Source: Chlorobiaceae bacterium (GTDB lineage: Bacteria > Bacteroidota > Chlorobiia > Chlorobiales > Chlorobiaceae). Taken from it: DNA of 61,274 nucleotides. The stretch covers positions 1 to 61,274 of the forward strand of contig JAAXWS010000014.1 of assembly GCA_013334865.1 (NCBI GenBank), in the 5' to 3' direction. Of this stretch, positions 29,397-31,664 are shown one piece after another. The translations under genes were made by a program, and so were the position numbers. Under the pieces are notes generated by a model. That model was not told the DNA's origin and searched no databases. It saw only the letters and a program-made list of their open reading frames with translations. The first letter of the stretch is position 1, and every line of letters begins with the position of its first letter.

Positions 29397-29711
29397 GTGG
29401 ATAAATCAGGGCCAACTTTCCTCTACATCCTATACTCAGTGACGGGCGATCGGTACTCTGTCGGTATCTCATCGAATCCTCAACGTCGTCTTGAGTATCA
29501 CAATGCCATAGAGCACGGTTTTACATCTCGTTACCGACCCTGGCGCCTCATGTTTGTCTAGGAGTACCCATCCAAAGCTGATGCCCGGGCTGCCGAGGCC
29601 AAGGTCAAGGGCTGGAAGAGCCTGAAGATGATCGAACACTCATTCGGGGAGAGGCATTGGTTTACAACGACTATCTGGACCCGGGAACGATGGATGTGGA
29701 TGTCCCGTTGA
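29397..29711 (+). pseudogene. GIY-YIG endonuclease-like protein with in-frame TAG
   Basis: The first half reads TFLYILYSVTGDRYSVGISSNPQRRLEYHN and ends RPWRLMFV, the pattern of small GIY-YIG (UvrC/YhbQ-like) proteins. A TAG at 29559-29561 stops it. The same frame then continues EYPSKADARAAEAKVKGWKSLKMIEHSFG, exactly the family C-terminal half. So one substitution interrupts a gene of about 100 codons, and the tail after that (WTRERWMWMSR) is not conserved. The start is unclear: GTG at 29397 is used here, and no good ribosome site is seen. Confidence 0.75.
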
Positions 29712-29719
29712 CAAGGGGG

Positions 29720-29747
29720 TTGCAGCGGGCACAGAATTTCCTATATT
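29720..29747 (+). promoter_or_regulatory. Possible promoter of leuL-leuA
   Basis: TTGCAG (29720-29725), a 16-bp spacer and TATATT (29742-29747) resemble -35/-10 boxes about 44 bp ahead of the leader peptide. Confidence 0.35.
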
Positions 29748-29790
29748 AACTGAAAGACAATCAAATCGCCGGAGCGGCACGAATACCCGT

Positions 29791-29847
29791 ATGAGCAGGA
29801 TCAGCAACAATCTTCTTCTAAGCCTAAGGCTTGCTTCAGGGCACTGA
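29791..29847 (+). CDS. leuL: leu leader peptide (attenuation)
   Basis: An 18-codon reading frame MSRISNNLLLSLRLASGH with five leucine codons among codons 8-14 (CTT CTT CTA, then CTA and CTT). It stops 49 nt before a terminator hairpin, which itself precedes leuA. GGAGCGG at 29771-29777 is a possible, rather distant, ribosome site. By analogy with enteric leuL, ribosome stalling at these codons when leucyl-tRNA is scarce would favour the antiterminator. The function is inferred from codon content and context. Confidence 0.72.
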   Translation: MSRISNNLLLSLRLASGH

Positions 29848-29931
29848 GGGGAGGCGTGTTGCGTTTCGTTCCGTAATTGGTCAGGATTACCGTTTCAAAG
29901 CCGCCAGCCACTCAGGTTCGGTGGCTTTTTT
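29844..29931 (+). promoter_or_regulatory. leuA attenuator: antiterminator and terminator hairpins
   Basis: The terminator pairs AAAGCCGCC (29897-29905) with GGTGGCTTT (29920-29928), followed by TTTTT-type T's. The competing antiterminator can pair CTGAGGGGAGGCG (29844-29856, right at the leader stop codon) with CGCCAGCCACTCAG (29902-29915), consuming the terminator's 5' arm. This is the classic 2:3 versus 3:4 choice. Confidence 0.65.
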
Positions 29932-29981
29932 CGTTTCAAAGCCATTATACTTACAAGAGGACAAAAGGAGATGCAGTTATC

Positions 29982-31664
29982 ATGAAAGCCATGAATTTCA
30001 GGAAGTATGTGCCATATCCGGCCGTCGATATCCCGGACCGGACATGGCCCGGGAAGCGGATCACCAAAGCCCCGATCTGGAGCAGCGTCGATCTTCGCGA
30101 CGGCAACCAGGCGCTCCCGATACCGATGAGCGTCGACGACAAGGTCGCCATGTTCAGGCTGCTCGTCTCCATCGGATTCAAGGAGATCGAGGTCGGTTTC
30201 CCGTCGGCCTCGGCCACGGAGTTCTCATTTGTCCGCAGGCTCATCGAAGAACGGATCATCCCCGATGATGTCACCATCCAGGTGCTGACCCAGTCCCGCG
30301 AACATCTCATCCGCCGGACCTTCGAGGCGATCAGCGGGGCGAAGAACGCCATCGTGCACCTCTACAACTCCACCTCCCGCCAGCAGCGCGACGTGGTTTT
30401 CAGGATGAGCCGCGAGGAGATCAAGGCCATCGCCGTTTCGGGTACCGAGCTGGTGAAGTCCCTGAAGGAGCAGAGCGGCAACCCCGGCATCCGCTTCGAG
30501 TACAGCCCCGAGAGCTTCACCGGGACTGAGCTCGACTACGCACTCGAGGTTTGCCACGCGGTCATGGACACCTGGGGCGCATCGGCCGGCAACAAGGTCA
30601 TCCTGAACCTGCCGTCGACTGTCGAACTGTCGATGCCGAACATCTATGCCGACCGCATCGAGTGGTTCTGCCGCAACATCAGGGACCGCGACGCGGCCAT
30701 CATCAGCGTGCATGCCCACAACGACCGCGGCACGGCGGTCGCCACCTCGGAGCTCGCGCTCCTGGCCGGCGCCGACCGTATCGAAGGAGCCCTGTTCGGC
30801 AACGGCGAGCGGTGCGGCAACATGGATATCGTGACGATGGCCCTGAACCTGCTGACGCAGGGCATCGATCCCGAGCTCGATTTCTCGGACATGCCGAAGA
30901 TCCGCGAAACCTACCGCCGGTGCACGCGCATGGAGATCCACCCTCGCCACCCATACTCCGGCGAGCTGGTCTACACCGCCTTCTCGGGTTCGCACCAGGA
31001 CGCCATCAGCAAGGGCATGAAAGCGCATGCCCGGTGCGCCGAGGGGCTCTGGGACGTGCCCTACCTGCCGATCGACCCGCAGGACGTCGGCTGCAGCTAC
31101 GAGGCGATCGTACGGATCAACAGCCAGTCGGGCAAGGGCGGCATCGCCTACGTGCTCGACAAGGAGTATGGCATCCAGGTCCCGAAATGGATGCAGCCCG
31201 ATTTCGGCAACGTCGTCCAGGAGGTGACCGACCGCACCGGCGACGAACTGACCCCCGGCCAGATCCACGAGCTGTTCCTGAGCGAGTATATCGGCGTGAA
31301 GAGTCCCTATGCGCTCAAGAAGTGCAATATCAGCTGGGATGACGCCGACCCGGATGCCAACGACGAGGTGGCGACCATCATCAGCTGCACGGTGCAGGCA
31401 CCGGAAGGCGAGACCGTGTTCAAGGCGAAGGGCAACGGACCTCTCGATGCCTTTGTCCGCGGCATGGTGAGCCAGACCGGGCTCGACTTCCATGTCGACG
31501 AGTATTCCGAGCATGCCATTGGCCACAGCTCCGACGCCCTGGCCATCGGGTATATCAGGATCTCCTGCACCGACGGGCGCATGGCCTGCGGTTCCGGCAT
31601 CGATTCCAACATCAGCCTCGCCTCCATCAAGGCGATCGTCAGCGCGCTGAACCGCCTGCGCTGA
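29982..31664 (+). CDS. leuA: 2-isopropylmalate synthase (LeuA type 2)
   Basis: A 560-residue protein of the long LeuA2 class. The catalytic barrel has SSVDLRDGNQAL at about 32-43, EVGFPSAS, and the metal histidines in SVHAHNDRGTAVATSELA followed by GNGERCGNMD. A C-terminal LeuA regulatory domain (about 435-560) is the site of leucine feedback in the family. It condenses acetyl-CoA with 2-oxoisovalerate. AAGGAG at 29965-29970 precedes the ATG at 29982. It stands alone, without leuBCD, behind a leucine attenuator. Confidence 0.95.
   Translation: MKAMNFRKYVPYPAVDIPDRTWPGKRITKAPIWSSVDLRDGNQALPIPMSVDDKVAMFRLLVSIGFKEIEVGFPSASATEFSFVRRLIEERIIPDDVTIQVLTQSREHLIRRTFEAISGAKNAIVHLYNSTSRQQRDVVFRMSREEIKAIAVSGTELVKSLKEQSGNPGIRFEYSPESFTGTELDYALEVCHAVMDTWGASAGNKVILNLPSTVELSMPNIYADRIEWFCRNIRDRDAAIISVHAHNDRGTAVATSELALLAGADRIEGALFGNGERCGNMDIVTMALNLLTQGIDPELDFSDMPKIRETYRRCTRMEIHPRHPYSGELVYTAFSGSHQDAISKGMKAHARCAEGLWDVPYLPIDPQDVGCSYEAIVRINSQSGKGGIAYVLDKEYGIQVPKWMQPDFGNVVQEVTDRTGDELTPGQIHELFLSEYIGVKSPYALKKCNISWDDADPDANDEVATIISCTVQAPEGETVFKAKGNGPLDAFVRGMVSQTGLDFHVDEYSEHAIGHSSDALAIGYIRISCTDGRMACGSGIDSNISLASIKAIVSALNRLR

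Follow-up and report, generated by a model that had tools for sequence, protein, structure and literature searches.

In the leader-peptide attenuators of E. coli (leuL, trpL and hisL), a short leader open reading frame (ORF) carrying control codons is followed by mutually exclusive antiterminator and terminator structures and a biosynthetic target, and rare CUA leucine codons are present in leuL. The first-pass annotation of the locus described here noted that such attenuation is best known from proteobacteria, a statement that needs correction as it has already been reported in Actinobacteria (PMC1262725, PMC10272879) and Firmicutes (PMC5794164). The actinobacterial LEU element has a leucine codon run ahead of leuA, but is described as a pseudoknot in which leucine codons and the Shine-Dalgarno box make up the base stem, and attenuation of the classical kind was judged unlikely there (PMC1262725). 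With the leucine-rich attenuator peptide of S. aureus ilv (PMC5794164) and the ilvB-II and ilvB-OMG uORF motifs (PMC10272879), a gene for branched-chain biosynthesis follows a uORF with many branched-chain codons. In the literature searched no description of attenuation in Chlorobi was found; the survey of Lopatovskaya et al. 2010 may mention Chlorobi.

The Chlorobi leader shares the general plan of the E. coli attenuators, and rare CUA leucine codons with leuL, and differs from them in its phylum and leuA type, its single target gene, a start without a clear Shine-Dalgarno sequence, and the lack of a match to the Rfam Leu_leader (RF00512) at the gathering score or at E values up to 10. No Rfam family related to the leader was found. 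Like the LEU element it has a leucine codon run before leuA, but its intrinsic terminator and antiterminator set it apart from that element as published. The S. aureus peptide and the ilvB motifs, for which sequence comparison was made through Rfam only, have other target genes.

A leucine-rich leader and alternative stems upstream of leuA

The window analysed is a stretch of 61,274 nucleotides from a Chlorobiaceae bacterium (contig JAAXWS010000014.1), and contains the following features at and upstream of leuA.

29720 to 29747, plus strand: candidate promoter TTGCAG-16 nt-TATATT (sequence, and recurrence in same-genus genomes)
29791 to 29847, plus strand: leader peptide ORF, MSRISNNLLLSLRLASGH then stop (homologous leucine-rich leaders in the family)
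29804 to 29816, plus strand: candidate segment 1 (protector), pairing with 29850 to 29862 when no ribosome is present (folding only)
29812 to 29832, plus strand: control region CTT CTT CTA AGC CTA AGG CTT, with two rare CUA leucine codons (sequence, CUA excess)
29834 to 29839 with 29844 to 29849, plus strand: second small hairpin (folding)
29844 to 29856, plus strand: segment 2, antiterminator 5′ strand, overlapping the leader stop codon (sequence, comparison)
29873 to 29890, plus strand: small hairpin GTAATT/GATTAC within the antiterminator loop (folding)
29897 to 29931, plus strand: intrinsic terminator (segments 3:4) with U-run (sequence, comparison)
29902 to 29915, plus strand: segment 3, antiterminator 3′ strand, common to the terminator 5′ arm (sequence, comparison)
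29965 to 29970, plus strand: Shine-Dalgarno-like AAGGAG of leuA (sequence)
29982 to 31664, plus strand: leuA, 2-isopropylmalate synthase of the LEU1/yeast type (TIGR00970, above cut-off)

The leader ORF was originally described as an 18-codon leader with five leucine codons, three of them consecutive, and this is right at the base level: it runs from an ATG at 29791 to a TGA at 29845-29847, with leucine at codons 8, 9, 10, 12 and 14 (CTT CTT CTA, CTA and CTT; 29812-29820, 29824-29826 and 29830-29832). The TTGCAG/TATATT pattern occurs in the same place in most same-genus genomes compared, and transcription from this candidate promoter would start near 29754. There is no conserved Shine-Dalgarno sequence upstream of the leader ATG in the same-genus leaders compared. 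Dinucleotide shuffles of 29700-29981 gave an ORF of 10-45 codons with three consecutive leucines and at least five leucines in total in 11 of 2000 cases with ATG starts only and in 20 of 2000 with any start; the same criterion was reached in 6 of 866 tiles of the window.

The terminator hairpin and its T run, proposed from the outset as a 9-bp stem, agree with the sequence: AAAGCCGCC (29897-29905) pairs with GGTGGCTTT (29920-29928), with an inner extension AGCC/GGTT and a U-run at 29926-29931 (-17.8 kcal/mol). The competing antiterminator is also present, 29844-29856 pairing with 29902-29915 through CUGAG/CUCAG, GG/CC and GGCG/CGCC (duplex energy -21.4), and is predicted to be mutually exclusive with the terminator. 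For this one sequence, 92 of 2000 base shuffles of the antiterminator 5′ strand pair equally well, so that the single sequence is modest evidence and the comparative evidence decides.

The annotated lone LeuA of type 2 (leuA2) is indeed the only LeuA of its genome. It matches TIGR00970, other LeuA homologues in the source genome are distant, no TIGR00973 LeuA was found there, and an ilvDBNC-leuBCD-cimA operon (gene names read from translations) lies on another contig without leuA. The operonic leuA (TIGR00973) is missing in the window's genus and present in most sister-genus genomes, usually alongside leuA2, and also in two genomes from another family of the order. Between the tRNA-Asn gene and the leader, 29440-29700 reads by eye as a GIY-YIG endonuclease-like frame with an in-frame TAG, probably a pseudogene. 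Elsewhere in the window, 9525-9600 matches the Rfam S6-S18-Chlorobi ribosomal protein leader.

Conservation and codon usage of the leader in Chlorobiaceae

A LeuA search of 86 family genomes gave 83 hits, and the DNA upstream of these was taken, 80 regions being readable. A leucine-rich ORF ending approximately 90-135 nt before leuA was found in 76 of the 80, and these 76 leaders were aligned. This comparison of leuA upstream regions in other Chlorobi had been proposed as a check, with homologous leaders lacking leucine codons or the alternative pairing as the contrary outcome; nearly all Chlorobiaceae leaders keep both. Four regions are exceptions: the leader is lost in L058 and L081, degenerate in L074, and in L059 leuA has unrelated upstream DNA. 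In L058 and L081, both of the sister genus, the tRNA-Asn gene directly abuts the retained leuA terminator, representing a natural leader loss. Three genomes, L001 (the source of the window), L005 and L006, have lost 4 bases compared with their sisters, which brings the leader stop within the first bases of segment 2; a ribosome at the shifted stop would still cover this segment. A covariance model of the leader (R1) gave a single strong full-length match per genome in 79 of the 86 family genomes. Across the rest of the class no match was as strong, and the weak full-length ones looked on reading like terminators of other genes or coding sequence.

Codon differences between gap-matched pairs of leaders were more frequent at the third position (0.226) than at the first and second positions (0.118 and 0.121). 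Leucine accounts for 26% of leader residues, with a median of 8 per leader. CUA makes up 39 of 145 leader leucine codons versus 2 of 703 in leuA in the window's genus, and 50 of 446 versus 1 of 374 in the sister genus; none of the 248 leucine codons of the window genes is CUA. Fisher values for these counts overstate independence because the counted genomes are related, and the effect recurs in both genera. The third-position excess and the CUA excess point to coding selection on the leader ORF.

Comparative support for the alternative stems

In the family alignment 94.2% of terminator cells are paired, and the antiterminator register has 84.5% of cells paired compared with 46-62% when the strands are slid. 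RNAalifold on the whole alignment recovered the terminator alone, and the antiterminator was therefore tested as a named structure. It has 32 double-change cells where shuffles give 20.2, and 1 of 500 shuffles reached the observed count. In the pair counts of the two stems, neither the tally of doubly changed pairs nor that of pair types rises above shuffles, and kinship inflates all counts of this sort. A duplex permutation test of 33 divergent leaders (<80% identity) showed that same-species 2:3 duplexes are stronger than between-species duplexes (-20.25 versus -18.86; 7 of 2000 permutations), and that same-species terminator arms (3:4) are stronger than mismatched arms (0 of 2000 permutations). 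The 1:2 protector had no covariation support in the same leaders (1635 of 2000 permutations). Apart from the protector stem, every feature that can be tested on sequence supports membership of the attenuator class.

Proposed mechanism and alternative explanations

The locus is very probably a ribosome-mediated transcription attenuator through which the supply of charged tRNA-Leu would control leuA, with the promoter, leader translation, co-transcriptional kinetics and leucine response all predicted from the DNA. When leucine is plentiful, the ribosome would pass the leucine codons, reach the stop at 29845-29847 and thereby cover segment 2, leaving segments 3 and 4 to make the terminator and end transcription ahead of leuA. 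With too little charged tRNA-Leu, it would stall on the leucine codons, notably the rare CUA, and segment 2 would be free to pair with segment 3, blocking the terminator and allowing leuA to be transcribed. Folding with a ribosome on the leucine codons and polymerase at 29918 gave the antiterminator and the small internal hairpin; with the ribosome at the stop codon it gave the terminator, and without a ribosome segment 2 was sequestered with the leucine-codon region in addition to the terminator, the three outcomes that the model calls for. The full stalled transcript favours the terminator at equilibrium, and the switch must therefore act kinetically, as is usual for such switches. The hairpin between 29834-29839 and 29844-29849 would compete unless covered by the stalled ribosome, so that stalling may fit Leu 12 or 14 better than Leu 8.

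Conservation of RNA upstream of leuA could also be expected of a leucine-binding riboswitch or a protein-binding RNA, the kind of element suggested in the case of the actinobacterial LEU, in which translation of the ORF would not be regulatory; mutations of leader codons in S. coelicolor did not have the effects expected under classical attenuation (PMC1262725). Here such an element is very unlikely, given that conservation tracks codons (third-position changes and rare CUA) as well as both alternative stems, and that no T-box or amino acid riboswitch covariance model matched at the gathering score or at E values up to 10.

An extremely improbable reading is that the hairpin terminates the upstream genes (tRNA-Asn and the GIY-YIG fragment) and that the leucine-rich ORF is due to chance. 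A tRNA-Asn gene does lie upstream and abuts the terminator retained in L058 and L081, but the 76 leaders, which show coding selection and a CUA excess, conserve ORF, antiterminator and terminator jointly, a chance leucine-rich ORF appears in only 0.5-1% of shuffles, and leader homologues precede leuA in other phyla. The position of a short ORF upstream of leuA would also suit a translational effect through re-initiation or masking of the ribosome-binding site, which is the least credible of these explanations since 134 nt, including the conserved U-tailed terminator, separate the leader stop from the leuA start, and it is with the terminator arm, not with the leuA ribosome-binding site, that the alternative pairing competes.

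Leader homologues in other phyla

Among 296 Bacteroidota genomes, leuA of the window's type is found only in the two Chlorobiaceae genera, and every other family of the order lacks it. Outside the family, the nearest LeuA proteins found are from Elusimicrobia, Spirochaetaceae, Omnitrophota and FCPU426, and the LeuA tree places the one from Elusimicrobia as sister to Chlorobi with moderate support (99/79). R1 matches were found before leuA in Elusimicrobia (L149, E value 4e-11, 584 nt upstream), Omnitrophota (L154, 9e-10; L156, 2e-8; L153, 4e-5) and FCPU426 (L157, 1e-7), and these leaders keep a GAGGTGYG-like segment 2 and the antiterminator-terminator pairing. In Omnitrophota, leuA of this type occurs in 2 of 193 sampled genomes. 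The homologous leader is missing from most Spirochaetota leuA2 genes examined. Short leucine-rich ORFs precede leuA2 in L223, L229, L234, L238 and L240 of this phylum (e.g. MNSGLSRILGLLLSLLLLLGTRGAGGPEPA); R1 does not recognise them over their whole length, and they are possibly independent attenuators.

Because leader homologues precede the same leuA type in the nearest relatives, while the other Bacteroidota sampled lack this leuA, the simplest reading is that leader and gene were probably transferred together horizontally, in either direction. We lean towards the view that leuA2 and its leader make up a regulated module, complete in itself, that has moved in one piece by horizontal transfer among Chlorobi, Elusimicrobia, Omnitrophota and FCPU426, and was left as the sole leuA in Chlorobaculum-like genomes after loss of the operonic leuA. 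If so, the module would function immediately in any bacterium that couples transcription to translation, because the attenuator brings its own leucine sensor.

A second leader before ilvD

In Chlorobiaceae (L200 (G000:C31) and L247-L273) a conserved ORF rich in valine, isoleucine and leucine ends approximately 60-140 nt before ilvD, at the head of the ilvDBNC-leuBCD-cimA operon. The source-genome peptide ends in GLSVVRVSIQVS before the stop, and the ORF is followed by conserved CCCAAGTCC and GGCTTCGGGA blocks. This leader has no Rfam match and is likely to be a second attenuator.

Discussion

The class of mechanism is old and well known; the analysis adds its occurrence in this phylum, its wide conservation there, the evidence from codon usage and the likely joint transfer of leader and leuA2. 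The leuA product catalyses the first committed step of leucine synthesis, and its leader is predicted to be a leucine sensor of the classic type. The comparison places classical leader-peptide attenuation firmly in green sulfur bacteria and provides a data set in which both alternative stems can be seen evolving, and the nearly absent CUA codon offers a simple marker for other attenuators in Chlorobiaceae genomes. Transfer of an attenuator together with the enzyme that it controls, as suggested by the distant homologues, would help to explain the spread of such regulation.
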